From an uncultured Pseudomonadota bacterium (GTDB taxonomy: Bacteria; Pseudomonadota; Gammaproteobacteria; Steroidobacterales; Steroidobacteraceae), in contig CAJACZ010000232.1 of the NCBI GenBank assembly GCA_903938365.1, forward strand, positions 1-54,875: a DNA stretch of 54,875 nt, in the 5' to 3' direction. The notes below the pieces were generated by a model. That model searched no databases. It was not told the DNA's origin and saw nothing but the letters and a program-made list of their open reading frames with translations. Position numbers and translations under genes: made by a program. Positions 31,486 through 48,799 of this stretch are shown piece after piece (the first letter of the stretch is position 1; every line of letters starts with the position of its first letter).

Positions 31486-33414
31486 ATGCCGGTGATCACG
31501 CTGCCCGACGGTAGCCAACGCAATTTCGACCAGCCCGTGACCGTGGCAGGTGTTGCCGCGAGCATAGGCGCAGGATTGGCCAGGGCAGCACTGGCGGGCC
31601 GCGTCGGCGACCGCCTGGTCGACACCTCGTTCCTGATCGCGGACGACACCCGCCTCGAGATCGTCACCGACAAGCATCCCGCGGCACTCGAGATCATCCG
31701 TCACTCCGCGGCACACCTGCTCGCGCAGGCCGTGCAGTCGCTGTTCCCCGAGGCCCAGGTGACCATCGGCCCGGTGATCGAGGACGGTTTCTTCTACGAC
31801 TTCGCCTACAAGCGACCCTTCACCCCTGAAGACCTGGTCGCCATCGAGGCGAAGATGCTCGAGATCGCCAAGGCAGACCTGCCGGTGGCGCGGACCGAAA
31901 TGCCCCGTGACGAGGCGGTCGGGTATTTCCTCGGCCTGGGCGAGAAGTACAAGGCCGAGATCATCGCCGCGATCCCGTCCAGCGAGCCGATCAGCCTGTA
32001 CGGGCAGGGCGGCTGGGTGGACCTGTGCCGCGGGCCGCATGTGCCCAGCACCGGCAAGCTCAAGGTCTTCAAGCTCATGAAGGTCGCAGGAGCCTACTGG
32101 CGCGGCGACTCGAACAACGAAATGCTGCAGCGGATCTACGGCACCGCCTGGACCGCAGAGAAGGACCTCAAGGATTACCTCCACCGGCTCGAGGAAGCCG
32201 AGAAGCGCGACCATCGCCGCATCGGGCGGGAACTGGACCTCTTCCACATGCAGGAAGAAGCACCCGGCGCGGTGTTCTGGCACCCGAAGGGCTGGAGCGT
32301 GTTCCAGTCCCTGATCAGCTACATGCGTGCCAAGCAGCAGGCCGCGGGCTTCGAGGAGGTCAGCGGCCCGGAACTGATGGACCGCAGCCTCTGGGAAGCC
32401 TCCGGCCACTGGGAAAAGTTCGGCGAGAACATGTTCACCACGACGACGCCGGACGAGCGCGTCTATGCGATCAAGCCGATGAACTGCCCCGGGCACGTGC
32501 AGATTTTCCGTCAGGGCCTGCGCAGCTACCGCGATCTCCCGGTCCGGTACGCCGAGTTCGGCAAAGTGCACCGTTACGAACCCTCGGGCGCGCTGCACGG
32601 ACTGATGCGGGTGCGGGCGTTCACCCAGGACGACGCCCACATCTTCGTGAGCCCCGAGCAGATCACCGTCGAATCCGTCGCGGTCACCCGACTGATCCTC
32701 GACATCTACCGGGATTTCGGCTTCGATGACGTCCGTATCAAGTTCTCGGACCGCCCCGAGAAGCGCGTCGGCTCGGACGACATCTGGGACAAGGCCGAGG
32801 CCGCCCTCCAGGAGGCCGCGCGCGTCGCGGGCATCGATTTCACCCTGAACCCGGGCGAGGGCGCGTTCTACGGCCCCAAACTCGAATTCGTGCTGCGGGA
32901 CGCCATCGGCCGCGACTGGCAGTGCGGCACCCTCCAGGTGGACCTGAACCTGCCCGGCAGGCTGGGCGCCCACTATGTCGACGAACACAGCCAGAAGAAG
33001 ACGCCGGTCATGCTGCACCGGGCCATCTTCGGTTCGCTCGAGCGCTTCCTGGGCATCCTGCTCGAGCACCACGCCGGAAAACTGCCCGCCTGGCTCGCGC
33101 CGACCCAGGTCGTGGTGATGAACATCACCGACCGCCAGGATGAATACGTCCGGGAAGTCGGCGAATTCCTTAATAATCATGGGGTTCGTGTCCAAACCGA
33201 CTTGCGAAATGAAAAGGTCGGCTTTAAGATTCGCGAACACACGCTGCAACGCGTCCCGTACCTTTTGGTTGCGGGCGACAAGGAAGTAGCGGCTAAGCTT
33301 TTGTCCGTGCGCACCCGTAGTGGCAAGGATCTGGGTCAGATGTCTCCGCAGACTTTCGTCGAGCGGCTGGCAGACGAACTCGGAAGCCACGGGCGCCGAA
33401 CTTTGGAGGATTGA
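31486..33414 (+). CDS. threonyl: Threonine--tRNA ligase
   Basis: Class II synthetase (ThrRS) charging tRNA-Thr, encoded by thrS. It is 642 residues from the ATG at 31486, preceded by GGAG. The N-terminal TGS domain ([17 protein letters not shown]) and the editing domain with [11 protein letters not shown] (the HxxxH pair) and [12 protein letters not shown] precede the class II core: motif 2 [20 protein letters not shown], the zinc ligand Cys in KPMNCPGH, and motif 3 [19 protein letters not shown]. An anticodon-binding domain closes the protein. It heads the translation-related operon thrS-infC-rpmI-rplT-pheST-ihfA. The frame extends upstream through tRNA-Val, but the family start fits this ATG. 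Confidence 0.96.
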
Positions 33415-33417
33415 TTT

Positions 33418-33939
33418 ATCTCGACTGCAAACAAGCGCATCCGGCGCAATGAGGACATCACGGCACCTGAGGTGCGCGTGATCGCGGCGGACGGATCCCA
33501 GGCGGGGATCATGACGCGCTTCGAAGCGCTTCAGCTGGCCACCTCGAGCGAGCTCGATCTCGTCGAAGTGTCACCGATGGCAGAGCCACCGGTCGTGCGC
33601 ATCATGGACTTCGGGAAGTTCCTCTTCGAACAGAAGAAGAAGACCCATTCCGCGCAGAAGAAGCAGAAGCAGCAGCAGATCAAGGAAGTAAAGTTTCGTC
33701 CCGGCACGGAAGAGGCCGATTACCAGGTCAAGCTGCGTAATCTGGTCCGCTTCCTGTCAGAGGGTGACAAGGCCAAGGTAACCCTGAGGTTCCGCGGCCG
33801 AGAGATGGCGCACCAGGAGATCGGGCGCCGGCTACTGGATCGGGTCGCTACCGACCTCGCCGCAACGGCGACGGTGGAACAGAACCCGCTGATGGAAGGC
33901 CGGCAGATGGTCATGGTGTTTTCGCCTAAAAAGAAGTGA
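33418..33939 (+). CDS. infC: Translation initiation factor IF-3, AUC start codon
   Basis: IF-3 binds the 30S subunit, prevents premature 50S joining and checks the start codon. I place the start at ATC 33418, giving 173 residues: GGAGGA lies at 33405-33410, seven bases upstream, the thrS stop is at 33412-33414 in the same frame, and the N-terminal [20 protein letters not shown] aligns with other IF-3 proteins. The first GTG (33472) would cut off this conserved start. A non-AUG start is the known basis of infC autoregulation (AUU in E. coli). The N-domain ([21 protein letters not shown]), Lys-rich linker helix ([13 protein letters not shown]) and C-domain ([17 protein letters not shown]) are standard. 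Confidence 0.92.
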
Positions 33940-33955
33940 TGCGTCAGTCGTCGTA

Positions 33956-33976
33956 GCTGCCCCATGGTGGGGTAGC
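33956..33976 (+). promoter_or_regulatory. Hairpin in the infC-rpmI spacer
   Basis: GCTGCCCCA (33956-33964) pairs with TGGGGTAGC (33968-33976), 9 bp with one G-U pair and a 3-nt loop, no U-run. It lies in the 109-bp gap before rpmI. L20 represses its own operon in E. coli through structures in this region, so this may be part of an L20 operator or a processing site; the remainder of the gap shows nothing clear. Confidence 0.4.
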
Positions 33977-34048
33977 CCGACACCGACTCATCCGCCCGTA
34001 GCGGGTTCTCGCGAACCTTGTGAACGGGGCCACAACAGGAGATGAGAA

Positions 34049-34249
34049 ATGCCCAAGTTGAAAACCAACCGGGCGGCGGCAAAGCGTTTTCGCAAGACGG
34101 CCAAGGGCTTCAAGTCCTACTCGGCCGGCCGACGCCACAACCTCGGACACAAGCCCCGCAAGACCAAGCGGCAGCTTCGCTCAGGAGGCACGAGTCTCGT
34201 GCACGAGAGCGATGTCGGTCGTCTTGTTCAGCTGCTGCCGAACGCCTAA
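34049..34249 (+). CDS. rpmI: 50S ribosomal protein L35
   Basis: A 66-residue basic ribosomal protein. The canonical start MPKLKTNRAAAKRFRKTA and the block HNLGHKPRKTKRQLR are present. AGGAG lies upstream of the ATG at 34049. It is the normal partner of rplT, which follows after 23 nt; in E. coli L20 translationally represses rpmI. Confidence 0.97.
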   Translation: MPKLKTNRAAAKRFRKTAKGFKSYSAGRRHNLGHKPRKTKRQLRSGGTSLVHESDVGRLVQLLPNA

Positions 34250-34272
34250 GTAAGCATCCGAGGTAAGGAACC

Positions 34273-34635
34273 ATGGCAAGAGTAAAGCGTGGCGTGACCG
34301 CGAGTCGCCGCCACAAGAAAGTTCTGGGCAAGGCCAAGGGCTACTACAACGCCCGTCGCAAGGTCTATCGCGCCGCCAAGCAGGCCGTCATCAAGGCCGG
34401 CCAGTATGCGTACAAGGGCCGTCGCATCAAGAAGCGCGACTACCGCGCGCTCTGGATCCAGCGCATCAACGCAGCGGCACGCCTGCACGGCCTGTCGTAC
34501 AGCCGCCTGATGAACGGCCTGAAGATCCTGCAGGTCGAGGTCGACCGCAAGATGCTCGCGGACATCGCGGTCCACGATGCAGAGGCCTTCGGCGCCCTCA
34601 CCACCAAGGTCAAGGCAGCCCTCGGCATCGCCTAG
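34273..34635 (+). CDS. rplT: 50S ribosomal protein L20
   Basis: A 120-residue 23S rRNA-binding protein needed early in 50S assembly and a known autoregulator of the infC-rpmI-rplT operon. The start [18 protein letters not shown] and the blocks [16 protein letters not shown] and [11 protein letters not shown] are typical. GAGGTAAGG precedes the ATG. pheS follows after 9 nt; its ribosome binding site overlaps the rplT stop. Confidence 0.98.
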
Positions 34636-38033
<3,398 letters not shown>

Positions 38034-38046
38034 GACCAGCCACATC

Positions 38047-38346
38047 ATGGCTTTGACAAAAGCCGAGATGGCGGAGGCGCTGTTCAACCAGCTCGGGCTG
38101 AACAAGCGCGAAGCCCGCGAGCTCGTCGATCTTTTTTTCGAGGAGGTCCGGGCGGCCCTTTCAAACGGGGAGCAGGTGAAGCTCTCTGGTTTCGGAAATT
38201 TCGACCTGCGCGACAAGAACCAACGGCCTGGCCGTAACCCCAAGACCGGTGAGGAGATCCCCATCAGCGCGCGGCGCGTGGTGACCTTCCGGCCGGGACA
38301 AAAACTGAAGGCTCGGGTCGAGGCTTATGCTGGAAGCAAAGAATAA
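38047..38346 (+). CDS. ihfA: Integration host factor subunit alpha
   Basis: The alpha half of the IHF heterodimer. It is 99 residues, starting [23 protein letters not shown], typical of IHF-alpha; an upstream in-frame ATG inside pheT adds a non-conserved extension. The DNABII arm [29 protein letters not shown] carries the intercalating Pro. Location after pheT is the standard gammaproteobacterial position, also known for E. coli, where ihfA expression is linked to pheST. It overlaps the next gene by 20 nt. Confidence 0.97.
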
Positions 38347-38683
38347 CGACGAACTGCCGCCGATCCCGGGGAAGCGCTACTTCACCATCGGTGAGGTCAG
38401 CGACCTCTGCGGCGTGAAGCCCCATGTCCTGCGCTACTGGGAACAGGAGTTTCCGCAGCTCAAGCCCGTCAAGCGACGCGGCAACCGGCGCTACTACCAG
38501 CGTCAGGACGTGCTCGTCATCCGCCAGATCCGCAGTCTGCTTTACGAACAGGGCTTCACGATCGGTGGCGCGCGCAACAAACTGCAGGGCGAAGAAGCCC
38601 GCAGCGACGTGAGCCAGAGCCAGCAGATCGTCAAGCAACTCCGGATCGAACTCGAAGACATCCTTCGCATACTTCGCCGCTGA
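38327..38683 (+). CDS. MerR family transcriptional regulator
   Basis: A 118-residue MerR-type DNA-binding protein. The winged helix-turn-helix is [28 protein letters not shown], followed by [23 protein letters not shown] and a dimerisation helix. No C-terminal effector domain or metal-binding Cys cluster is present, so it is a short, probably constitutive, form. A gene of this type commonly follows ihfA in gammaproteobacteria; its targets are, to my knowledge, unassigned. Its ATG lies within the end of ihfA, implying coupled translation. Confidence 0.88.
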
Positions 38684-38744
38684 ACGCGGTATCATTGGAA
38701 ACGGCGCGAGAAACCCCCACTCGCAAGCCTGCTGGATCTACGGT

Positions 38745-38821
38745 CGGGGCGTGGCGCAGCCTGGTAGCGCACTTGCATGGGGTGCAAGGGGTCCCGAGTT
38801 CAAATCTCGGCGCCCCGACCA
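38745..38821 (+). tRNA. tRNA-Pro (GGG)
   Basis: A 77-nt cloverleaf: acceptor CGGGGCG with CGCCCCG, anticodon stem CTTGC/GCAAG with loop ATGGGGT giving GGG, T arm GAGTTCAAATCTC and an encoded CCA at 38819-38821. It follows the merR gene and stands directly before a large hairpin and the LeuC-like gene. I could not find a confident promoter with correct spacing upstream. Confidence 0.95.
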
Positions 38822-38823
38822 AC

Positions 38824-38881
38824 TTCTCCAGCTCAGGAAAATCCCGGTGCGTCAGCCAGACGCATCCGGGCCGCTGGAGAA
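38824..38881 (+). promoter_or_regulatory. Nested RNA hairpin between tRNA-Pro and the LeuC-like gene
   Basis: Outer stem TTCTCCAGC (38824-38832) with GCTGGAGAA (38873-38881), 9 perfect pairs. Inner stem CCCGG-TGCGTC (38843-38853) with GACGCA-CCGGG (38859-38870), 11 pairs with one bulged T, and a 5-nt loop AGCCA. The structure begins 2 nt after the tRNA CCA and ends just before the leader CAGGA and ATG of the next gene. No U-run follows, so it may be a tRNA terminator, a processing signal or a leader controlling the operon. Confidence 0.6.
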
Positions 38882-38890
38882 ACCGCAGGA

Positions 38891-40312
38891 ATGGCCCAGA
38901 CCCTCTTCGAAAAAATCTGGCGGCAGCACGTCGTCCGCGAGCTGGACGGTAATGCCGCCCTGGTCGCGATCGACCGTGTTTTCCTGCACGAACGCACCGG
39001 CTCCGTCGCACTGAAGAGCCTGCGTGACGCGGGACGCTCGGTGCTGGACCCGGCTCGAGTCTTCTGCACCATGGACCACATCGTCGACACCCTGCCCGGG
39101 CGCGGCGACGACACCCTGATGCCCGGTGGCCGGGCCTTCATCGTCGAGACCCGTGAAGCTGCGCTCGCCGCCGGCATCCGCCTGTTCGACGTGCGTGACC
39201 CGCAGCAGGGCATCGTGCATGTCATCTCGCCGGAACTCGGCATCGTACTGCCGGGTGCCACGGTGGTCTGTCCGGACAGTCATACCTGCACCCAGGGTGC
39301 GATGGGCGCATTGGCCTGGGGCATCGGTTCGACCGAAGCGGAACATGCTCTTGCGACCGGAACCTTGCGGGTCAACAAGCCGAAGACCATGCGGGTCCGT
39401 TTCGAGGGTCGACTGGCGCCAGGCGTGACCGCGAAGGACCTGACCCTGGCACTCATTTCCCGCCATGGCTCGGCCGGCGGCAACGGCTACGCGGTCGAAT
39501 ACGCGGGCAGCGCCGTGACCGCGCTCGAGGTGGAGGCGCGACTCACCCTCTGCAACATGGCGACGGAATTCTCGGCGATGACCGGCATGATCGCCCCGGA
39601 CCAGAAGACCTTCGAGTATCTCGAGGGACGGCAATACGCACCGCGTGACGCCGGCTGGGAGCAGGCCGTGGCGCATTGGCGCACCCTGGTCACCGACGAA
39701 GGCGCGAGCTTCGACCGGGAAATACTCATCGAGGTCGATGAGCTCGCGCCGATGGTCACCTGGGGAACGAGCCCCCAGCACGCGGTTGCCATCACCGCGA
39801 CGGTACCGACGCTCGAGGCGAGCGGCACCGCGCCTGAGGGCTATGCGCGCGCCCTGCAGTACATGGGCCTCGAGGCGGGCGCTTCGCTGCTGGGCCTGCC
39901 GGTGGGCGCGGCGTTCATCGGCTCCTGCACGAACAGCCGGATCTCCGATCTGCGGCGCGCGGCGGCCGTGCTGCGCGGCCGCAAGGTCGCACCGGGCGTG
40001 CGCGCAATCTGTGTGCCAGGTTCGATGACCGTCAAGCGTCAGGCCGAAGCGGAAGGCCTTGACCGCGTGTTCCGCGACGCCGGGTTCGAATGGCGCGAAT
40101 CGGGCTGCTCGATGTGTTTTTTCTCGGGCGGCGAAAGTTTCGGTGCCCGCGAGCGCGTGATCTCCTCGACCAACCGGAACTTCGAGAGCCGACAGGGCCC
40201 GGAGACCCGTACCCACATCGCGAGTCCGGAGACCGTGGCCGCGAGCGCGATCGCCGGGCATATCGCCGATGTGCGACCCCTGCTGGCCGGTTCATCGACC
40301 GGCCACCATTAG
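38891..40312 (+). CDS. LeuC-like dehydratase large subunit (3-isopropylmalate / (R)-citramalate dehydratase family)
   Basis: A 473-residue aconitase-superfamily subunit with a [4Fe-4S] cluster; relatives isomerise 2- to 3-isopropylmalate, or hydrate citraconate to (R)-citramalate. The cluster ligands are Cys346 (GSCTNSRI), Cys406 and Cys409 (GCSMC). Two regions deviate from typical leucine-pathway LeuC: PDSHTCTQGAMGALAWG instead of GDSHTSTHGAFGALAFG, and CFFSGGESFGARERVISSTNRNFE instead of the CLxMNxD..P.GERCASTSNRNFE pattern. The RNFESRQG tail and length fit LeuC. It is followed by a LeuD-like subunit, an HMG-CoA-lyase-like protein and a CoA transferase rather than leuB, so a catabolic role is likely; leucine synthesis remains possible. 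Confidence 0.85.
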   Translation: MAQTLFEKIWRQHVVRELDGNAALVAIDRVFLHERTGSVALKSLRDAGRSVLDPARVFCTMDHIVDTLPGRGDDTLMPGGRAFIVETREAALAAGIRLFDVRDPQQGIVHVISPELGIVLPGATVVCPDSHTCTQGAMGALAWGIGSTEAEHALATGTLRVNKPKTMRVRFEGRLAPGVTAKDLTLALISRHGSAGGNGYAVEYAGSAVTALEVEARLTLCNMATEFSAMTGMIAPDQKTFEYLEGRQYAPRDAGWEQAVAHWRTLVTDEGASFDREILIEVDELAPMVTWGTSPQHAVAITATVPTLEASGTAPEGYARALQYMGLEAGASLLGLPVGAAFIGSCTNSRISDLRRAAAVLRGRKVAPGVRAICVPGSMTVKRQAEAEGLDRVFRDAGFEWRESGCSMCFFSGGESFGARERVISSTNRNFESRQGPETRTHIASPETVAASAIAGHIADVRPLLAGSSTGHH

Positions 40313-40327
40313 GCGGGGAGGGCAGAC

Positions 40328-40960
40328 ATGGAAAAAGTCGAGACGGTCACTTCGGTCGCGGCGCCTCTCATCAGGGCGAACATCGACACAGACGCGATCA
40401 TCCCGTCGCGTGAAATGAAATCCGTTTCCAAGACCGGCCTCGCGGACGGTCTGTTCGCCGGCTGGCGATACACGGCCATCGGAGGACGCGAACCGAATCC
40501 CGGATTCGTGCTCAACCAGCCGGCCTACTCAGGAGTGCGGATCCTGCTCGGTGGCACCAACTTCGGCTGCGGCTCGAGCCGCGAGCACGCGGTCTGGGCG
40601 CTGCATGAATACGGCATTCGTGCGGTGATCGCGCCGACCTTCTCGCCCATCTTCTACGGCAACTGCGTCAGGAACGGCATCGTTCCGGTGCGGCTCGCCG
40701 CCCCCGACATCGCCACGCTGGCCGTGTGGGTCGAGCAGGACCCCGCAGGGCATCCGCTCACCGTCGATCTGCGGGCCCAGCGTGTCACGTCCGGCGGCGG
40801 GCATGCCTTCTCTTTCGAGATCGAGGCGGAGCCGCGGGACATGCTGCTCGAAGGCCTGGACGGCATCGACCTTACTCTCAAGCAACGCTCCGCCATCGAG
40901 TCCTTCAGGGCAGCGGACCGCAAGGCTCGTCCCTGGATCTACCTGGAACCCACCCCATGA
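40328..40960 (+). CDS. LeuD-like dehydratase small subunit
   Basis: A 210-residue swivel-domain subunit that completes the active site of the large subunit encoded 15 nt upstream. Family blocks are NIDTDAIIPSREMKSVSKTG, EPNPGFVLNQP, the phosphate/substrate-loop region NFGCGSSREHAVWAL and IFYGNCVRNGI, and the C-terminal TLKQRSAIESF. The GSSREHA motif is intact, so the pair should be catalytically competent. Typical LeuD reads KQFLKSIKRTG and ends with a conserved HxxxLLxGLDDIGLTL; here the latter is RDMLLEGLDGIDLTL. Its TGA overlaps the start of the lyase gene (ATGA). Confidence 0.87.
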   Translation: MEKVETVTSVAAPLIRANIDTDAIIPSREMKSVSKTGLADGLFAGWRYTAIGGREPNPGFVLNQPAYSGVRILLGGTNFGCGSSREHAVWALHEYGIRAVIAPTFSPIFYGNCVRNGIVPVRLAAPDIATLAVWVEQDPAGHPLTVDLRAQRVTSGGGHAFSFEIEAEPRDMLLEGLDGIDLTLKQRSAIESFRAADRKARPWIYLEPTP

Positions 40961-41892
40961 ATATCCTGATCAGCGAGGTCGGTCCGCGCGACGGCCTGCA
41001 GAGCATCGACCGCATCATGCCGCTCGAGGCCAAGAAGGCCTGGATCGATGCGCAGGCCGCAGCCGGCTTCACCGAGATCGAGGTGGGCAGCTTCGTGCCC
41101 GCGCGAATCCTGCCGCAGCTCGCGGACACCGCCGAGCTCGTGGCGCATGCGCGCGGCATCGCGGGCATGACGGTGGCGGTGCTGGTGCCGAACCTCAAGG
41201 GAGCGGAGGCCGCCGTAGCTGCCGGGGCGCACAAGCTCACCCTGCCGCTGTCGGTGTCGGAGACCCACAGCCTCAAGAACGTCCGCCGCACGCATGCCCA
41301 GATGCTCGACGAAGCGCGCGGCATCGTCGCGCTGCTGCGCAGCCTCGCGCCGGCGCTGCGCCCCAGGTTCGAAGGCGGACTCTCAACGGCTTTCGGGTGC
41401 ACGATCGAGGGCGCCGTACCGGCGGACAAGGTGGTGCGCATCGCCGAGCAACTCATGGAAGCCGGCTGCGATGAAGTCGGCCTCGCCGACACCACCGGAT
41501 ATGCGAATCCCGCGCAGGTCAAGGACCTGGTGCGGCGGATCAAATCCGCCCTGGGCGACCATGCGCTGTCGGGTCTGCACCTGCACAACACGCGGGGCCT
41601 GGGACTGGCCAACGTGCTCGCGGGCCTGGATGTCGGGATCACCACCTTCGACAGCTCCCTGGGTGGCCTCGGTGGCTGCCCTTTCGCGCCGGGCGCGTCG
41701 GGCAATATCGTCACCGAGGATCTGGTGTTCATGCTCGAGGCCATGGGGCTGCGCACCGGCATCGACCTCCCGAAGCTTCTCAAGGTCAGGGATATCCTGC
41801 GTGCGGCCCTGCCCGGGGAGGCCCTGTACGGGTTCACCCCCGACGCCGGCCTGCCGCTCGGGTTCCAGCCCGCCACGATCGCCAGCCGCTGA
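40957..41892 (+). CDS. HMG-CoA lyase family protein, possibly (R)-citramalyl-CoA lyase
   Basis: A 311-residue DRE-TIM metallolyase that should cleave a 3-hydroxy-acyl-CoA to acetyl-CoA and an oxo acid. The HMGL markers are EVGPRDGLQ (Arg11, Asp12), the metal-binding histidines in LHLHNTRG, and the signature GLGGCPFAPGASGNIVTEDLV with the loop Cys241. HMG-CoA lyases usually read HCHDT where this has HLHNT. (R)-citramalyl-CoA lyase of Chloroflexus is known to belong to this family. The neighbouring dehydratase and CoA transferase favour citramalyl-CoA (to acetyl-CoA and pyruvate) over HMG-CoA of leucine breakdown, but the sequence alone does not decide. Start overlaps the upstream stop. Confidence 0.85.
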   Translation: MNILISEVGPRDGLQSIDRIMPLEAKKAWIDAQAAAGFTEIEVGSFVPARILPQLADTAELVAHARGIAGMTVAVLVPNLKGAEAAVAAGAHKLTLPLSVSETHSLKNVRRTHAQMLDEARGIVALLRSLAPALRPRFEGGLSTAFGCTIEGAVPADKVVRIAEQLMEAGCDEVGLADTTGYANPAQVKDLVRRIKSALGDHALSGLHLHNTRGLGLANVLAGLDVGITTFDSSLGGLGGCPFAPGASGNIVTEDLVFMLEAMGLRTGIDLPKLLKVRDILRAALPGEALYGFTPDAGLPLGFQPATIASR

Positions 41893-41904
41893 GGTAGCGC
41901 ACGC

Positions 41905-43098
41905 ATGAACAACACGACGAAATCAGCCGCACTGCCCCTGGCAGGCATCAAGGTGGTCGAGTTCACCCACATGGTGATGGGGCCGGCCGCAGGCGCCGTG
42001 CTCGTGGAACTCGGAGCGGAAGTCCTGAGGATAGAGCCCATCGGCGGCGACTCGACCCGGGAGCTCAAGGGTTCCGGAGCGGGCTATTTCCCGATGTACA
42101 ACCGCAACAAGAAGAGCATCTGCCTGGACCTCAAGTCACCCGAGGGCCTGGCAATCGCCCGGCGACTCTGCGCCCAGGCGGACGTGGTGGTCGAGAACTT
42201 CCGCACCGGTGCCATGGACAAACTGGGGCTCGGCTACGACGCCCTGTCCCAGGAGAATCCCCGGCTGATCTACTGCTCGGAAAAGGGCTTCCTGCCTGGC
42301 CCGTACGAGAACCGGACGGCGCTCGACGAAGTCACGCAGATGATGGGTGGCCTGGCCTACATGACCGGCCCGCCGGGGAGGCCGCTTCGCGCGGGCACCT
42401 CAGTGATCGACGTGACAGGCGGCATGTTCGGTGTGATCGCAGTCCTCGCGGCGATCGAGCAGCGGCACACCACGGGCCGCGGCCAGAAGGTCAGCAGTGC
42501 GCTGTTCGAAACGACGGTGTATCTGGTCGGGCAGCACATGGCGCAGATGGCCGTGACCGGTCGCGCCGCCCAGCCCATGCCCGTGCGTATCTCGGCCTGG
42601 GCGATTTACGACGTGTTCGAGACGCGCGACAACGACCACGTCTTCGTGGGAATCGTCTCGGACGGCCTGTGGCAGAAGTTCTGCGACACTTTCGGCCTGG
42701 CTGAACTGGGCGCGGACCCCCGCTACAAGGCGAACAACGACCGCGTGGCCGCACGCGAGGTTCTGCTCCCGCAGGTGCGGGACCTGTTCAAGAGCTTCAC
42801 GAAGGCGGAACTGATCCCGCAGCTGGAGCGGACGGGCCTTCCGTTCGCTCCGATCGGCAAGCCCGAAGACATGTTCGACGATCCGCACCTCGCGGCCAGC
42901 GGCGGCCTCGGCGCGACCACCTTGCCGGATGGACGGGCGACACGACTGCCGATCCTGCCCATCGAAATGGACGGACGCCGTCCGAGTCAGGGCGGCAGCC
43001 TCGCCCGGCCCGGCGAGCATGGAGAAGAAGTCCTGCAGCGACTCGGGATCGGGGCGGAGGACATCGCGGCACTCAGGGCGCGCAAGATCGTGGGTTGA
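41905..43098 (+). CDS. CaiB/BaiF family III CoA transferase
   Basis: A 397-residue formyl-CoA-transferase-type enzyme that moves CoA between acids. The N-terminal Rossmann region (LAGIKVVEFTHMVMGPAAGAVLVELGAEVLRIE) and NRNKKSICLDLKSPEG are typical, and the nucleophilic Asp (about residue 141) is in TALDEVTQMMGG. A C-terminal domain (about 215-330) and a returning tail complete the interlocked-dimer fold. It is the last gene of the four-gene set, 12 nt after the lyase. A likely job is succinyl-CoA:(R)-citramalate CoA transfer, a reaction known for a family III member in Chloroflexus; other dicarboxylic acids are possible. Confidence 0.9.
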   Translation: MNNTTKSAALPLAGIKVVEFTHMVMGPAAGAVLVELGAEVLRIEPIGGDSTRELKGSGAGYFPMYNRNKKSICLDLKSPEGLAIARRLCAQADVVVENFRTGAMDKLGLGYDALSQENPRLIYCSEKGFLPGPYENRTALDEVTQMMGGLAYMTGPPGRPLRAGTSVIDVTGGMFGVIAVLAAIEQRHTTGRGQKVSSALFETTVYLVGQHMAQMAVTGRAAQPMPVRISAWAIYDVFETRDNDHVFVGIVSDGLWQKFCDTFGLAELGADPRYKANNDRVAAREVLLPQVRDLFKSFTKAELIPQLERTGLPFAPIGKPEDMFDDPHLAASGGLGATTLPDGRATRLPILPIEMDGRRPSQGGSLARPGEHGEEVLQRLGIGAEDIAALRARKIVG

Positions 43099-43222
43099 TC
43101 CTGCCGCAAACGTGCGCCGCTTGGCATTCGCGAGCGCAGCGGCCCGCTTATGTCGTGTGCCGGGATCCTCGGCCGGGTCCTCATAGAGAATCCCCGTCAG
43201 TTGGACAAAACGCGGGAATCAC

Positions 43223-44617
43223 TTGGCCACGGCACGCTTGGAATCTGCATCGGGATCTGTTGCCTCAGGGCAGCGCCAGGGTCGCACGCCTGAATCAGAC
43301 GAGGCAGCACCTTCGCGGCAGCTGGCCTTCGGTCCGAACGCCCGCGGCGGCGCACTGCGCGCTGCGCTCGCGATCGCCGGGACACTGGCGCAGGCCCACT
43401 CGCGCGGCATCGTCCACGGGGCGCTGAAGCCAGAGTGCCTGCGCACCGGAGACTCCGGCGAGGTGCGGATCACCGGCTTCCAGGGCGCCGCCGCTTCTCC
43501 GGCGCAGTTCCGTGAAGCAGCCACGGCGGACGTCGCGGCGTTTCTGCATTGCGCGGGCGTGTTGCTGGGGCCCAGCGGCGGCCCACCACCGCGCCTGCGG
43601 GGTGTCTTTGACGGTCGGGTGGTGCTTTCGGCAGACGATCCGCGGCAGGCCATGGCGGCGCTGCGTGACGAACTCCGGGAGTCTCTCGAGGATACTTTCC
43701 CCTGGCCCATCCCCGGCTGGGAACGCCCACCGGGAAAGCCGGCTCCCGTCGTCCAGCGCGTAGAGCAGGGCGGCGCGCCGAAGCGTCAGACAGCGCCTGT
43801 GCCGCCCACGCCGCCCACTGCGCTGACCCCGCCGAAGGAGGCCCGGCTCGCGGCTGCGCCCGTCGTCGCTGTGCCGGCCGTTGCCCAACCCGTGACCGCG
43901 GCACCGGCCGCGCCCGTGGCGCATCCGCAGAGCGTGATCCCGGCTACTCCGGTGGTCGCCGTGGTCGAGCCCGCGGGCCTGCATGCACTACAGCCTTCGT
44001 CCCAGCCCGCGTCCACGCCTCCCGCCAGGCCCGGCAACGGCGGGGCACCCATGGTGCAGGCTGCAGTAGCGCGCGCCGTCCTGCAGGCACTCGAGTCCAC
44101 CGCCGAGAGGCCCGCAACCCCTCAGGTCCCGGCGGCTTCCCGCAAGGCTCCGCGAGTGGCGGTGCAGGGCGCCGCCACCGCAGGTTCTGGCAGGCGCCAA
44201 AGCGCGTGGTGGTCAGGACCCGCGGCCTGGCTCTGTGTCGGATTGCTGGCCAGCGCAGCGACCCTGTGGGTGCTCGATTCGGTCTACGGCATCGCCGATG
44301 CATCGAGCGACGCACCGACTGCCACGCCATCGGCGGCGGTGGCGACGTTGAAATCCTTCCCGGCCGCAGGAACACCAGTACCCCAGGGCGCGGCGGAAAC
44401 CGACAGCGCGGTCTCCGCCGCCATCACGGACGGTTTCGCACGGCTCGAGGCCGGTCAGCCGGATCTCGCGCGCGCCTGGTTCGAGCATGCGCTGACACTG
44501 CAGCCCGACAACGCGAGGGCACTCGCGGGCCAGCAGCAGGCTGCCGCGGCGATGGGGTCGTCGAGCCTCGACCGCGTATCCCGATTGCTGGAGCAAGCCG
44601 CGACCACGCAGCGCTGA
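43223..44617 (+). CDS. Membrane-anchored pseudokinase fragment protein with TPR-like tail
   Basis: A 464-residue protein of novel layout. Residues 43-95 match the C-lobe core of Ser/Thr protein kinases (ALAIAGTLAQAHSRGIVHGALKP...VRITGFQG). The HRD aspartate is replaced (HGALKP, Ala67) and DFG is GFQ (Gly85 for Asp), so it cannot be an active kinase; the glycine-loop N-lobe is missing altogether. A Pro/Ala-rich linker (about 165-325) leads to a single membrane helix (about 333-355), then a short extracytoplasmic TPR-like pair of helices (about 395-440). The start is a TTG at 43223 with GCGGGA upstream; no ATG or GTG is in frame after the stop at 43184. The 125-base spacer before it shows no clear signal. 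Confidence 0.7.
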   Translation: MATARLESASGSVASGQRQGRTPESDEAAPSRQLAFGPNARGGALRAALAIAGTLAQAHSRGIVHGALKPECLRTGDSGEVRITGFQGAAASPAQFREAATADVAAFLHCAGVLLGPSGGPPPRLRGVFDGRVVLSADDPRQAMAALRDELRESLEDTFPWPIPGWERPPGKPAPVVQRVEQGGAPKRQTAPVPPTPPTALTPPKEARLAAAPVVAVPAVAQPVTAAPAAPVAHPQSVIPATPVVAVVEPAGLHALQPSSQPASTPPARPGNGGAPMVQAAVARAVLQALESTAERPATPQVPAASRKAPRVAVQGAATAGSGRRQSAWWSGPAAWLCVGLLASAATLWVLDSVYGIADASSDAPTATPSAAVATLKSFPAAGTPVPQGAAETDSAVSAAITDGFARLEAGQPDLARAWFEHALTLQPDNARALAGQQQAAAAMGSSSLDRVSRLLEQAATTQR

Positions 44618-44647
44618 AAAAACCGCCGGTGTAGACTCCATCGGGCA

Positions 44648-45916
44648 ATGGGGTCTTTCTCCCTCGACATGATCTGGACGCTGCCTTACGGTGGCTTTCT
44701 CGTCGCGCTCGGGATCGGGTTGCTGATCGGTGTGGAGCGCGAGCGTCGCAAGGTGGACAGCTCGGTCGGTGCACCGGGGGGTATCCGCACCCATGCGATC
44801 ATCGCCCTCCTGGGCGCTGCCGCGGCCAGCTTCGACAGCCCGGCCATCGTGGTCTCGGGCGCAGCGGTCGTAGGCGCGCTCGCGGTCGGCTCGTACCTTC
44901 GATCGAAAGCACCCGACCCGGGGATCACCAGCGAAGTCGCGCTGTTCAGCACCTACCTGATCGGCGCCCTGGCGATCAATGCGCCTCAGCTCGCGGCGGC
45001 ACTGGGCGTCCTCATCGCTCTGCTGCTCGCATCCCGCGGCGTCCTGCACGAATTTGCCCGGCGCAGTCTCTCGGACCGGGAGGTCCTGGACGCCATTCTG
45101 CTTTCAGGGGCGGCGCTCGTCGTGCTGCCCCTCATGCCGGACCGTGGCGTGGACCCCTACGGCGTGGTCAACCCGCAACTCGTCTGGCGGCTCACCGTAC
45201 TGGTGCTCCTGCTCAACGCATTCGGCTACGTGGCCCTGCGGGCGCTGGGGCCCGGACGCGGACTGCCGCTGGCCGGTCTGTTCGGCGGCTTTGTGTCGAG
45301 CACCGCGACCATCGGTGCGATGGGAGCGCAGGCCCGTGGAACCCCAGCGCTCGCACGAGCGGCGGCCACCGCAGCGACGCTCTCGTCGCTGGCCACAGTC
45401 CTGCAGATGTCGATGGTGCTGAGTCTGGTCAACCGCAGCCTGCTCGCGCAGCTCGCCCCGGGCCTTGCGGGCATGGGCCTGGTCGCGGTCATCTGGGCGT
45501 TCATGGGCATGAGGGCGGTCAGACGCGACCCGGCCTGCGAAGCGACTCCAGCGCAGGCAGGCAGGGCGTTCCAACCCGCCTACGCGCTGGCCTTCAGCGC
45601 CACGATCACGGCGGTGCTGTTGATGGCGGCGTTCCTGGAGCGACGCTATGGCTCGGTCGGCGCGCTGTTCGGCCTCACGATAGGCGGTTTCGCCGACACG
45701 CACTCGGCCGGCGCCTCGGCAGCGGCACTGCAGGCCAAGGGAGCACTGTCCATGCACTCCGCACAGCTGGGCGTGATGCTGGCCATGACGGCCAACACCG
45801 TGTCGAAGCTGCTGGTGGCACAGACCACCGGTGGATGGGGCTTCGTGCGCGCGACAGCACCCGCCTTGCTCGTCATGCTCGCGGCACTGTGGGTCATGAC
45901 GCTCGCACTGCGCTGA
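44648..45916 (+). CDS. MgtC/SapB-like integral membrane protein with DUF4010
   Basis: A 422-residue polytopic inner-membrane protein. The N-terminal MgtC/SapB signature is GIGLLIGVERERRK and GIRTHAIIALLGAA, with further membrane helices through residue 150. The second half (about 175-385) is the DUF4010 region, including LFGGFVSSTATIGAMG and FGLTIGGFADTHSAGASAAAL, both rich in small residues. About 12-13 membrane helices in total. MgtC itself modulates F-type ATP synthase and magnesium stress survival in Salmonella; proteins of the DUF4010 type have no established function. It starts 30 nt after the pseudokinase gene, so the two may be co-transcribed. Confidence 0.85.
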   Translation: MGSFSLDMIWTLPYGGFLVALGIGLLIGVERERRKVDSSVGAPGGIRTHAIIALLGAAAASFDSPAIVVSGAAVVGALAVGSYLRSKAPDPGITSEVALFSTYLIGALAINAPQLAAALGVLIALLLASRGVLHEFARRSLSDREVLDAILLSGAALVVLPLMPDRGVDPYGVVNPQLVWRLTVLVLLLNAFGYVALRALGPGRGLPLAGLFGGFVSSTATIGAMGAQARGTPALARAAATAATLSSLATVLQMSMVLSLVNRSLLAQLAPGLAGMGLVAVIWAFMGMRAVRRDPACEATPAQAGRAFQPAYALAFSATITAVLLMAAFLERRYGSVGALFGLTIGGFADTHSAGASAAALQAKGALSMHSAQLGVMLAMTANTVSKLLVAQTTGGWGFVRATAPALLVMLAALWVMTLALR

Positions 45917-45950
45917 GGGCTCCACCCCCCAGCGCAGGCTCTGAGGCGAA

Positions 45951-46937
45951 TCAGACCGTCATCGCGTTGGGCATCGTCATCAGCTGCGCGCCACGGCTAC
46001 GCGCCGTCACCTTGGTCTTGAACTTGCCGGGCTTCACGATCAGTACATCGCAGGGGAGGGCATCGAGCACCGCCTCGGCGGTATTGCCGATGAGCAACCG
46101 CCTGATGCCCGAACGCGAGACCGCGCCCATCACGACGATGCCCGCCTTCAGCGCCTTGGCAGCCGCGGGGATCGCATCGCGCGGCACGCCTTCGAAAATC
46201 GACAGCTTGTGCGGCGGCAGCGGCAGGCGTTCGATCTCTGCCGCCAGGGCCTGACGGGCTGCCCTGGCCGCTGCCTTGCCATCGGACCCAGGCATCACGA
46301 CCGGGCCTGCAGCCCAGCCTGCGCTGAGCAGGACCGGCGGCGGATAGACATGAACGACCTGCATCGTGCCGCGCAGTGCGGTCTTGATGGCGCCGGCCGT
46401 CTGGAGGATGCCACCGTCGAGGCGGGCCGGCTTGGCATGCAGGTGGAACGGATCGACCGCCGCCATGACGGCAGGTCGATGGTAGGGCTTTGCGGTCTTG
46501 ACGATCAGGACGGGGCAGGGCGCAAGCCGAAGCAGTTCCCAGTCCGTGTAGCTGAGCATCCAGCCTGCGATATGCCTGCCGGAGTGCCGCTCGGCGACGA
46601 TCAGGTCGGCCTTGCTGCGCATGGCCCGCCGCACGATGGCTTCGGAGGGCGGAAAGTCCCACTCTGCGGCGACCGTGACCGGGATCTGGTGGCGACGCAG
46701 GCCCGACGCGATTTTCTCGAGCCGGGTCAGCGTGCGCCCGAGTTGCTCTTTCTCGAACTCGCGAAGGCTCATGTGCTGGGCCTCCAGCGCATCGACGAGG
46801 ACCGTCTGCGAGAGGCCATGGAACAGTTCGAGTTCGGCGCCGAGTGCCTTGGCGAGTTGCGCCGCCTTGCTCACGGCGGGGAAGGAGCGGGCACCTGGAT
46901 CCTTGATCGCGACCAGAATTCGTTTCACGGACTGCAT
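45951..46937 (-). CDS. Universal stress protein with two tandem Usp domains
   Basis: A 328-residue UspE-like protein. The first domain is about residues 1-150 (VKRILVAIKDPGARSFPAVSKAAQLAKALGAELELFHG ... CPVLIVKTAK) and the second about 155-315 (PAVMAAVDPFHLHAKPARLDGG ... CDVLIVKPG). The second carries an ATP-binding pattern G-x2-G-x9-G-N (VMGAVSRSGIRRLLIGNTAE); in the first it is less complete (ERHSGRHIAGWMLSYTDWE). The ATG at 46935-46937 gives the family start; the longer frame overlaps the divergent gene. It is divergently arranged with the FAD oxidoreductase, sharing a 148-bp spacer in which I see no recognisable regulator site. Confidence 0.9.
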   Translation of the reverse strand: MQSVKRILVAIKDPGARSFPAVSKAAQLAKALGAELELFHGLSQTVLVDALEAQHMSLREFEKEQLGRTLTRLEKIASGLRRHQIPVTVAAEWDFPPSEAIVRRAMRSKADLIVAERHSGRHIAGWMLSYTDWELLRLAPCPVLIVKTAKPYHRPAVMAAVDPFHLHAKPARLDGGILQTAGAIKTALRGTMQVVHVYPPPVLLSAGWAAGPVVMPGSDGKAAARAARQALAAEIERLPLPPHKLSIFEGVPRDAIPAAAKALKAGIVVMGAVSRSGIRRLLIGNTAEAVLDALPCDVLIVKPGKFKTKVTARSRGAQLMTMPNAMTV

Positions 46938-47085
46938 TTGAATCGTTCTCCCTTCGCGTGGTGTGTGGATTTTTGCCGGATTGAGCGCCGGTTGCATCCG
47001 TAGGTCTGCGTATCCGCACCGGCATGGCAGCGGCGGATCAGTGGCGTTAAAGTTGGAGCTGGTTTCAGCAGCAGGATTACCGACG

Positions 47086-48699
47086 ATGCAGCAGGCAATC
47101 AGGATCGACGACACGGCAGCACTGGAGCAGGTCCTCGGGGGACTGCTCGAGCCGGACGAACTGATCTTCGACGAAGCCGAGCGCCGCACCTGTTCGAGCG
47201 ACGTCTATTCATCGGGGCTGCTGGTGGACGCGATCCTGCGCCCCCGTGACCGCCAGCGGCTCGCGCGGGCCGTGGCGGCTGCCACCGCCGCGGGTTACTC
47301 GATCGTCACGCGGGGCGGCGGTCTCTCGTATACGGGTGGGTACCTCGCCGAACACCCCGGAACCCTGGTGGTGGATACCGCGCGCCTCGATCAAATCATC
47401 GAGATCAGCGCCGAGGACCTCTATATCAGGGTGGAAGCCGGTGTCACCTGGAAGCGCATCTACGAAGCACTGAAGCCCCTGGGCCTCAGGCTGCCGTTCT
47501 TCGGCACGTTTTCTGGCGCCCGTGCGACCGTGGGCGGCGGCCTCTCGAACGGCGCGTTGTTCCTCGGCACGGCGCGCTTCGGCACGGCGGCCGACTGCAT
47601 GCTGGGGCTCGAAGTGGTGCTTGCGGACGGCACGATCGTGCGTACCGGGCAGGCGGGCATCCGCAACGCAGCGAAGCCCTTTTATCGAACCTACGGACCC
47701 GATCTGTCGGGCCTGTTCATCCACGATTCCGGCGTGCTCGGCGTCAAGGTGGAGGCGACGTTCCGGCTCATCCGCATGCCTGAGCACACCGGATACGTGT
47801 CCTTCGTGTATGACGGCATGGCGGCCGCGGGCGCAGCGCTGTCGGAAGTCGCACGCACCGGCGCGGCAGAGGAAGCCTACGTCTTCGACCCGGAAACAAC
47901 GCGCAAGAACCTCGCGACCGGTGACCTGCTCAAGGATGCAGGCACCCTGCTGAACGTCGTGCGCGGCGAATCCAGCCTGCTGAAGGGCCTGAAGGAGGGC
48001 GCGCGACTGGTGGCTGCGGGGCGGGACTTCATGCCCGACGACGCCTACTCGCTGCATATGGTCTGCACGGGCCGCACCGAAGTCGCCCTCGAGGCCGACC
48101 TCGAGGCCTGCCGTGCGGCCTGCCAGTCGCTCGGCGGCACCGAGATCCCGAACTCGATCCCCAAGGCCGTACGGGCGAGCCTGTTTCCCGAGCCGGATGG
48201 CGTGCTCGGACCCGACGGCGACCGCTGGGCCGCCCTGAACGCCAAGGTGGCGCATTCCGACGCCCGGCGCATCATGGAGGCCGCAGCGGCTGCGCTCGAA
48301 CCCCATCAGGCCGAGATGGCCGCCCGCAAGGTGTGGATGAGCCATCTGTTGATCGCGATCGGTTCCACGGCGTTCAGCTTCGAACCCGTGTTCCATTGGC
48401 ACGACGAGTGGCTGCCGCTGCACGAGACCATGCCGTCGGCTGCAACGCTCGCGAAGTTCAAGCGGCCGGCTGCGGATCCTGCGGCGCGCGAACTGGTCGC
48501 GCGGCTGCGGGAGCGCCTGATCGAGGTCTTCAGCGAACTCGGTGCCGCCTCGAACCAGATCGGCAAAACCTATCCGTATCTGCAGAACCTCGAACCGGAG
48601 ACGGCCGCGCTGTTGCGCGCACTGAAGTCGGCCGTGGACCCGGGTGGCGCGATGAACCCGGGTGGGCTGGGGCTGGGGCTGGGGCGCGACCTGGGCTGA
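47086..48699 (+). CDS. FAD-binding oxidoreductase of the GlcD/VAO superfamily
   Basis: A 537-residue flavoprotein. The N-terminal PCMH-type FAD domain (about 50-240) reads SIVTRGGGLSYTGGY, VRVEAGVTWKRIYEALKPLGLRLPFFG, and ATVGGGLSNGALFLGTARFG. The C-terminal FAD-oxidase domain ends with the typical DPGGAMNPGGLGLG. Close families are glycolate and D-lactate dehydrogenases and 4-cresol-type dehydrogenases; the substrate cannot be told. No signal peptide is seen. The ATG at 47086 was chosen over upstream in-frame starts because the protein there loses homology. Its last codons contain a repeated GGGGCT hexamer. The next gene encodes a cytochrome-containing exported protein, a possible electron acceptor. 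Confidence 0.88.
   Translation: MQQAIRIDDTAALEQVLGGLLEPDELIFDEAERRTCSSDVYSSGLLVDAILRPRDRQRLARAVAAATAAGYSIVTRGGGLSYTGGYLAEHPGTLVVDTARLDQIIEISAEDLYIRVEAGVTWKRIYEALKPLGLRLPFFGTFSGARATVGGGLSNGALFLGTARFGTAADCMLGLEVVLADGTIVRTGQAGIRNAAKPFYRTYGPDLSGLFIHDSGVLGVKVEATFRLIRMPEHTGYVSFVYDGMAAAGAALSEVARTGAAEEAYVFDPETTRKNLATGDLLKDAGTLLNVVRGESSLLKGLKEGARLVAAGRDFMPDDAYSLHMVCTGRTEVALEADLEACRAACQSLGGTEIPNSIPKAVRASLFPEPDGVLGPDGDRWAALNAKVAHSDARRIMEAAAAALEPHQAEMAARKVWMSHLLIAIGSTAFSFEPVFHWHDEWLPLHETMPSAATLAKFKRPAADPAARELVARLRERLIEVFSELGAASNQIGKTYPYLQNLEPETAALLRALKSAVDPGGAMNPGGLGLGLGRDLG
48660..48684 (+). repeat. G-quadruplex-like hexamer repeat at the 3' end of the FAD oxidoreductase gene
   Basis: Five consecutive G-runs (3, 3, 4, 4 and 4 bases) separated by T or CT, from three GGGGCT units. 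The spacing fits a stable intramolecular G-quadruplex on the coding strand and in the mRNA. The repeat encodes the GLGLGLG tail of the oxidoreductase and is just upstream of the AT-rich region before the next gene. Confidence 0.6.
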
Positions 48700-48732
48700 G
48701 CGCCCCCGCCCGACCCCATCATTCCTAGTGCG

Positions 48733-48748
48733 CATAATGTATATTATG
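48733..48748. promoter_or_regulatory. AT-rich inverted repeat upstream of the cytochrome/propeller gene
   Basis: CATAAT and ATTATG arms around GTAT, within an A/T-rich island of about 35 bases (48731-48765) that stands out in this GC-rich DNA. It is 52 nt before the chosen ATG of the next gene and contains TATATT and TATTAT -10-like hexamers. It is likely a promoter, perhaps with an operator dyad. Confidence 0.45.
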
Positions 48749-48799
48749 TTAAATAATAGATATCGCCAAAGCCGCCCTGGAGCCCGCCAGCCCGGCCCC

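Follow-up and report, generated by a model that had tools for sequence, protein, structure and literature searches.

What does a LeuC-LeuD pair do in an operon that lacks the other leucine genes and continues into a lyase and a coenzyme A (CoA) transferase? This question is raised by four genes on contig CAJACZ010000232.1 (C232) of an uncultured Steroidobacteraceae bacterium (assembly GCA_903938365.1), which was analysed over its full length of 54,875 nucleotides and is called the window here. The contig belongs to a 3.59-Mb metagenome-bin genome of 359 contigs, 99.4% complete and 1.9% contaminated. The four genes, called the cassette below, are as follows:

38891..40312, + strand: LeuC-like large subunit, Fe-S hydro-lyase (P0001, 473 amino acids, ATG start and TAG stop; PF00330, 506 bits)
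40328..40960, + strand: LeuD-like small subunit (P0002, 210 amino acids; PF00694)
40957..41892, + strand: lyase of the 3-hydroxy-3-methylglutaryl-CoA (HMG-CoA) lyase family, HMGL (P0003, 311 amino acids; PF00682)
41905..43098, + strand: family III CoA transferase, CoAT (P0004, 397 amino acids; PF02515, 356 bits)

The four open reading frames (ORFs) are intact, without inner stops, and follow each other with a spacing of 15 nt, a 4-nt overlap and a spacing of 12 nt. All four family matches are well over the Pfam cut-offs, and ORFs and families agree with the four-gene operon described in the initial annotation. As stated there, no leuA, leuB or cimA was seen beside the operon among the ORFs of positions 33000-49000, which were read by eye, and the same reading revealed no CitE-type lyase or itaconyl-CoA hydratase. 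Based on the comparisons presented below, we regard it as likely that the cassette is a module for the catabolism of a branched dicarboxylate of the cis (maleate) type and that, in this genome and some of its relatives, it would be fed by a linked amidase/hydrolase operon.

The LeuC-LeuD-HMGL-CoAT set is a real conserved unit. The loci were collected by one scan of named genome contigs with P0001 only, and the best 80 of 593 confirmed matches were analysed, some of whose genomes overlap the set of 60 family genomes used below. The genes were counted at identity limits of 60% for LeuC, 48% for LeuD, 60% for HMGL and 55% for CoAT. LeuD was present in 80/80 loci, HMGL in 69/80 and CoAT in 68/80, and 66 of the 80 loci carried all four genes (arranged and oriented as in the window in 53, differently in 13); as the loci had been fetched by LeuC alone, this conservation is beyond chance. 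Among the loci with about full 9-kb flanks the set was complete in 44/50, and HMGL and CoAT were still together in most of the rearranged loci. The 14 loci without HMGL or CoAT nearby included several at contig ends. The genome-wide search of 11 of them (L080, L086 and L090 were excluded) found both genes in 10 genomes, as neighbours in 8 of these, which together with the 66 complete loci confirms that the four genes belong together.

The window LeuCD is a paralogue, other than the leucine-pathway enzyme, because a full leucine operon is present elsewhere in the genome and a fully supported branch separates the group of the window LeuC from other LeuC. Contig C263 of the same genome carries leuA, leuC, leuD and leuB together, and all four exceed the cut-offs of their models (leuA 647.7 bits against 598.7, leuC 643.3 against 560.25, leuD 188.9 against 116.25 and leuB 459.6 against 353.2). 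Three Aconitase-family matches were found in the genome: a 976-amino-acid aconitase-like protein on contig C93, the LeuC of C263 and the window LeuC. The careful LeuC tree comprised 55 rows, i.e., 41 of the 88 distinct cassette LeuC and 14 others (L106, L149 and L152 were left out). A single branch with 100/100 support, present in 100% of 200 bootstrap trees, parts the 41 cassette rows from the other 14, for which a leucine operon was confirmed only in the case of the window genome's own sequence and five of which are the extra LeuC of loci L051, L065, L067, L146 and L147. The quick tree of 62 rows, which included the long rows L106, L149 and L152, showed the same split with support of 80 and 90. 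Moreover, 14 alignment columns separate the cassette (n = 88) from the other (n = 14) LeuC sequences, with agreement of at least 95 and at least 90%. The closest named relatives of the window LeuC among the best 80 of 593 matches are Steroidobacteraceae bins with 84 and 83% identity. Matches to P0001 of at least 60% identity occur in 13 of the 60 family genomes (split over separate contigs in G042, G049 and G058), and the ordinary LeuC of family genomes, among the matches listed, are mostly 47-53% identical to it.

The domain content (Aconitase in LeuC, Aconitase_C in LeuD) and the cysteines of SCTNSR and CSMC, which we take to be ligands of the Fe-S cluster, identify the pair as an Fe-S hydro-lyase of the aconitase superfamily. 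The window LeuC scored 559.1 bits with the leuC equivalog model TIGR00170, missing the cut-off of 560.25 by 1.2 bits, and its top-scoring model was NF009116/PRK12466 (689 bits, cut-off 531). The window LeuD exceeded the cut-off of PRK01641 (241.6 against 167 bits) and remained below that of the DmdB-type model TIGR02087 (71.7 against 108.95 bits). Both motifs that the initial annotation had considered distinctive of this LeuC, SHTCTQG and CFFSGGE, are present in the protein. The former is common in the cassettes (66/88 LeuC), but CFFSGG is peculiar to the window genome, as 41 of the 42 cassette LeuC caught by the motif pattern (42 of 88) have CFFAGG or CFYAGG. In LeuD, one stretch reads IPSREMK in the window and, among the forms listed, most commonly IPSRE(M/I)(K/R) in the cassettes, and the other LeuD have mostly P(G/A)RFL, once PKQFL. 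The Lys of this loop had been considered as a sign of an extra substrate carboxylate, an argument that was dropped because FLK is also found in an ordinary LeuD. As a separate observation, locus L022 (842-3905, genome G002) presents what may be a third variant, in which a different LeuCD (47-49% identical) adjoins an HMGL (43-44% identical).

The lyase belongs to the HMG-CoA lyase family (280.4 bits with PRK05692, cut-off 246). Its residues R11, D12, H208, H210, C241 and N250, presumably the active-site Arg, Asp, His, His, Cys and Asn, are invariant in 29/29 aligned rows, and the predicted structure (predicted local distance difference test score 92.7) has the HMG-CoA lyase fold. The nearest solved relative by both sequence and fold is 6nds (Foldseek rank 1, 43% identity), the title of which describes an HMG-CoA lyase in complex with coenzyme A and 3-methylmalate. 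Since human and other HMG-CoA lyases rank closely behind, this complex is only a hint to the substrate of the modelled lyase. The transferase is assigned to family III by PF02515 and by the Asp that formyl-CoA transferases conserve; this Asp, part of SVIDVTGG, has an Asp as its counterpart in all three relatives compared, and we assume it to be catalytic. Its best NCBIfam match was succinate-glutarate CoA-transferase with 249 bits, far under the cut-off of 750, and no (R)-citramalyl-CoA lyase or (R)-citramalate CoA-transferase model was among the NCBIfam matches.

The reactions, their order and the substrate are deduced here from sequence. In the first step, LeuCD would hydrate a 2-alkylmaleate, in the simplest case citraconate, to a tertiary 2-hydroxy acid, in the simplest case (R)-citramalate. 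The family III transferase would then add CoA from a donor such as succinyl-CoA, and the HMG-CoA lyase relative would perform a retro-Claisen cleavage that yields a 2-oxo acid such as pyruvate and an acyl-CoA such as acetyl-CoA. The three-step citraconate route proposed in the initial annotation is thus kept in its outline, as hydratase, transferase and lyase are the best reading of a paralogous LeuCD in a conserved unit, and it is widened in its substrate, as the neighbourhoods described next allow larger alkylmaleates in part of the genomes. The substrate may be citraconate/(R)-citramalate or a larger 2-alkyl- or 2,3-dialkylmaleate.

The linked operon consists of an isochorismatase-family amidase (AMI) and two PuuE/polysaccharide-deacetylase-like hydrolases (IMIa and IMIb). 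At identity limits of 52% for AMI, 55% for IMIa and 42% for IMIb, this triad is near the cassette in 39/80 loci. In the window genome it forms a tight operon close to one end of contig C182, in which stop and start codons overlap, and its AMI and IMIa are 62% identical to their sphingomonad counterparts. Among the 60 family genomes, the cassette was found in five of the six with IMIa (E 1e-70) and in eight of the 54 without it (Fisher p = 0.0012; p = 0.0048 after excluding the window genome). Likewise, all 10 plasmid records with a LeuC of at least 65% identity carry IMIa, of which there are 32 records (E 1e-60) among 72,556. AMI adjoins HMGL on pJE1, pTomTYG65b and an Acidiphilium plasmid. 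Asp, Lys and Cys patterns were present in 64, 60 and 68 of 71 AMI-like rows, respectively. Because the triad stands beside the cassette in 39 loci, on all 10 plasmids and occurs in the window genome, an imide or half-amide is proposed as one feeder: IMIa and IMIb would open a cyclic imide and AMI would free ammonia from the half-amide, so that the triad probably supplies the diacid in part of the genomes. A ureide role for the triad may also be considered, since the best PDB relative of IMIa is PuuE allantoinase (118 bits) and the relatives of AMI include N-carbamoylsarcosine amidohydrolase. A carbon-nitrogen hydrolase on C182 was not counted as a pathway member because it is only 34% identical to the one near sphingomonad cassettes.

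Several results weigh against the proposed module and its feeder. The window genome is a metagenome bin in which cassette and triad are on separate contigs. Eight of the 13 family cassette genomes lack IMIa, among them all three others of the same genus. A search of 36 cassette genomes found it in 20 but not in 16 (35 of the 36 are without the triad at the cassette locus, and two of the 20 positives are also in the family set), and G025 has IMIa without a cassette LeuC of at least 60%. IMIa and IMIb are nearest to PuuE allantoinase yet far below the cut-off of its model (123.7 and 103.2 against 424.6 bits), and AMI has no clear preference between its PDB relatives N-carbamoylsarcosine amidohydrolase (96 bits) and 4l07 (93 bits), which we take to be a maleamate amidase. 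Regarding the cassette itself, HMGL and CoAT are both absent from G086 at the limits used and the HMGL match of G077 is partial; the lyase keeps the HMG-CoA lyase residues and 6nds itself bears the HMG-CoA lyase name; CoAT is far below all specific CoA-transferase models; and scans of the window found no promoter-like site and terminator-like sites only at chance level.

The neighbourhoods provide further clues to the substrate. Plasmids pJE1 and pTomTYG65b carry the triad and the cassette together with a second LeuCD, an isocitrate lyase/phosphoenolpyruvate (PEP) mutase-family enzyme and an acyl-CoA synthetase, and locus L067 has the same extra LeuCD/isocitrate-lyase-family set. A pairing of LeuCD with an isocitrate-lyase-family enzyme also characterises dimethylmaleate breakdown. 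The extra genes are located as follows:

L146, 6284-9106: LeuCD adjoining an isocitrate lyase/PEP mutase-family gene, beside the triad
L147, 6359-9169: LeuCD adjoining an isocitrate lyase/PEP mutase-family gene, beside the triad
L067, 1373-4190: LeuC and LeuD adjoining an isocitrate lyase/PEP mutase-family gene, beside the triad

In the quick tree, the extra LeuC of these three loci group together as one starred subclade. On Burkholderia plantarii p1, the triad occurs with a different LeuCD of the hacA/DmdB type and again with an isocitrate-lyase-family enzyme. This enzyme falls among relatives of methylisocitrate lyase and 2,3-dimethylmalate lyase. As one triad goes with two kinds of hydratase plus lyase, the neighbourhoods suggest alkyl- or dialkylmaleates. 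The other group of clues comes from six plasmid regions with CoAT/HMGL relatives (CoAT 53-59% identical), chosen from plasmids whose sequence has no LeuC match at E 1e-150. HMGL and CoAT are adjacent in five of the six, and five of the six have a tripartite ATP-independent periplasmic (TRAP), tripartite tricarboxylate (TTT), dicarboxylate or citrate transporter. The Paraburkholderia terrae region also contains MmgE/PrpD, acyl-CoA dehydrogenase, CoA transferase, enoyl-CoA hydratase and aconitase-family genes nearby. These HMGL-CoAT neighbourhoods fit (R)-citramalate and resemble the methylsuccinate gene set as described in the available part of PMC12290011. A branched five-carbon (C5) dicarboxylate fits because most of the plasmid HMGL-CoAT pairs stand beside di- and tricarboxylate transporters and because of the methylmalate complex of 6nds. 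Within the 80 loci, a GltS-type symporter is present in four (L036, L037, L038 and L100, the first three of which group with the window LeuC in the quick tree) and an acyl-CoA dehydrogenase in six.

Two of the alternatives are narrower forms of the proposed module, so that their probabilities do not add up to one with the rest. The substrate could be exactly citraconate and (R)-citramalate, imported as such, with the triad as an unrelated nitrogen-salvage unit that merely co-occurs. The transporters beside the HMGL-CoAT pairs, the P. terrae gene content, the GltS symporters, 6nds and the eight family cassette genomes without IMIa at the limit used all speak for it, and another route for these acids is needed, given that Pseudomonas putida with the itaconate (C5) cluster of P. 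aeruginosa used neither, according to the part of PMC9875883 available. The triad link on the loci and plasmids, with AMI adjoining HMGL on three of the latter, is too tight for chance, and we hold this form to be quite possible, though short of probable. The unit could also degrade 2,3-dialkylmaleates from substituted maleimides, citraconate being just the smallest member. This is what the second LeuCD and the isocitrate-lyase-family enzyme of pJE1, pTomTYG65b, L067 and B. plantarii p1 point to, but the family matches of that enzyme are unspecific (4iqd, its best solved relative, 212 bits; 2,3-dimethylmalate lyase 3fa3, 145 bits) and under the NCBIfam cut-offs, and the window genome has no second such pair among its three aconitase-family matches. 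We consider this form somewhat unlikely.

The remaining alternatives separate the genes of the cassette from each other. HMGL and CoAT might degrade 3-hydroxy-3-methylglutarate, with a true HMG-CoA lyase, and LeuCD would then serve something else. The conserved lyase residues and nearest solved HMG-CoA lyases agree with this, as does the match of CoAT to the solved succinate-hydroxymethylglutarate CoA-transferase 9br6 (172 bits, fourth in the list); neither of the two HMGL genes of the genome was seen beside leucine-degradation genes among the ORFs around the window copy and the C215 copy. It leaves the pairing of LeuCD with HMGL-CoAT in nearly all genomes examined unexplained, however, and is considered unlikely. 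Still less credible, and in our opinion very improbable, is a second biosynthetic isopropylmalate/citramalate isomerase of leucine or isoleucine synthesis with the other two genes incidental. The LeuC score just under the leuC cut-off, the LeuD score above the leuD cut-off and the names of the nearest solved LeuC relatives (isopropylmalate/citramalate isomerase) would suit it, but it is opposed by the complete leucine operon on C263, the separate tree group and the near-constant pairing with HMGL and CoAT.

A more specific version of the catabolic module concerns pigments. The available part of PMC7318184 lists methyl-, methylethyl- and methylvinylmaleimide and hematinic acid among the products of chlorophyll and haem degradation and refers to reports of maleimides and hematinic acid in senescent leaves and in lake sediments; in its own leaf data, hematinic acid was found and maleimides were not detected. 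Substituted maleimides from chlorophyll or haem decay (methylmaleimide, ethyl- or vinyl-methylmaleimide, hematinic acid) would be processed by IMIa/IMIb, AMI, LeuCD and the CoA-dependent cleavage, with a second gene set on contig C215 for another ring type, a pathway that we consider rather unlikely as a whole. In the C215 set (L115, 1-8568), a second copy of HMGL and of CoAT (40 and 31% identical, respectively) is joined by HyuA/HyuB-type proteins, whose best model, caprolactamase, remained below the cut-off, as well as two isochorismatase-domain genes and a partial molybdopterin-binding protein at the contig edge. By its gene content it is perhaps another N-heterocycle or lactam pathway. On the Acidiphilium multivorum plasmid (L148, 19418-25389), GntR, HMGL, CoAT and hydantoinase A/B genes of content like C215 lie about 6 kb beyond the cassette LeuD. 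It is a conjecture that having one HMGL-CoAT set for each of two ring types would be suited to tetrapyrrole fragments.

Each type of activity is known, and what is new here is the conserved triad operon linked to the cassette. Succinyl-CoA:(R)-citramalate CoA transferase and (R)-citramalyl-CoA lyase come from Chloroflexus and belong to the same families as the window CoAT and HMGL. The proposed chemistry is the same, and, compared by description only, the window enzymes differ in being encoded in one operon with LeuCD, which some of the genomes combine with an imide/half-amide module. Both reactions (EC 2.8.3.20 and EC 4.1.3.46) are listed as known in the part of PMC8307300 at hand. The Pseudomonas Ict-Ich-Ccl system for itaconate/methylsuccinate likewise uses CoA transfer and a lyase to turn a branched C5 dicarboxylate into acetyl-CoA and pyruvate but, in the available parts of PMC12290011 and PMC9875883, it uses the (S)-citramalyl series and has no LeuCD step. 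Isopropylmalate(/citramalate) isomerase LeuCD (4nqy, 4kp1) shares its domain families and cysteine motifs with the cassette pair, which differs in its separate tree group, the 14 near-fixed LeuC positions, the LeuD stretch IPSREMK and the location outside a leucine operon. Nicotinate fermenters possess 2,3-dimethylmaleate hydratase and 2,3-dimethylmalate lyase, where, as proposed for the cassette, a LeuCD-type hydratase feeds a C-C lyase that yields pyruvate; the cassette LeuD is under the DmdB-type cut-off and its lyase is of the CoA-dependent kind. The superfamily placement of 2,3-dimethylmalate lyase is taken from the reference list of PMC7609661. For the triad, the cassette diacid would be hydrated and then cleaved through CoA, unlike in the imide and maleamate pathways. 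Maleamate amidases act in the latter. These amidases and the cyclic imidase HxnM, described as related to HpPgdA and PuuE in the part of PMC9304392 available, represent related hydrolase families that fit the sequence imide, half-amide, diacid. In the literature covered (titles and abstract starts, with subscription papers mostly outside coverage and only some of the searches aimed at this question), no description of the four-gene unit or of its triad link was found.

Annotated plasmid records label the cassette genes as 3-isopropylmalate dehydratase and hydroxymethylglutaryl-CoA lyase, and the recognition of the unit would correct annotations in Sphingomonadales, Steroidobacteraceae and others. 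It also names a candidate route for citraconate and (R)-citramalate, neither of which was used by P. putida carrying the Pseudomonas C5 cluster (PMC9875883, as above). The link to a probable imide/half-amide operon raises the question of which imides bacteria consume, pigment breakdown products included. If true, the maleimide pathway would be previously undescribed in bacteria and would recover the last carbon and nitrogen from pigments that are very abundant.

The setting of the operon in the window begins with a flanking gene outside the pathway, directly upstream:

38745..38821, + strand: tRNA-Pro (ggg), predicted by ARAGORN

Upstream of it are thrS-infC-rplT-pheS-pheT-ihfA and a merR-like gene, assigned by reading the translations, and downstream of the operon lie a hypothetical ORF, an MgtC/DUF4010 protein and, farther off, an FAD_binding_4 protein (46963-48699) that clusters with proteins from Novosphingobium cassette neighbourhoods. 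In that genus, the cassettes L081, L082, L085, L087, L091, L094 and L097 have a gene of the MmgE/PrpD cluster nearby. Genes clustering with arylmalonate-decarboxylase-family and FAD_binding_3 proteins (one representative per cluster was annotated) were found at L081, L082, L087, L091, L094 and L092. Many sphingomonad cassettes are near a methyltransferase-like gene, c5, whose alignment gave no substrate clue. Its product (L049 1926-3113 and similar; 35 loci by loose clustering) has a methyltransferase domain and a long, unusual N-terminal part, and the gene often adjoins one for a small protein of about 100-130 amino acids.

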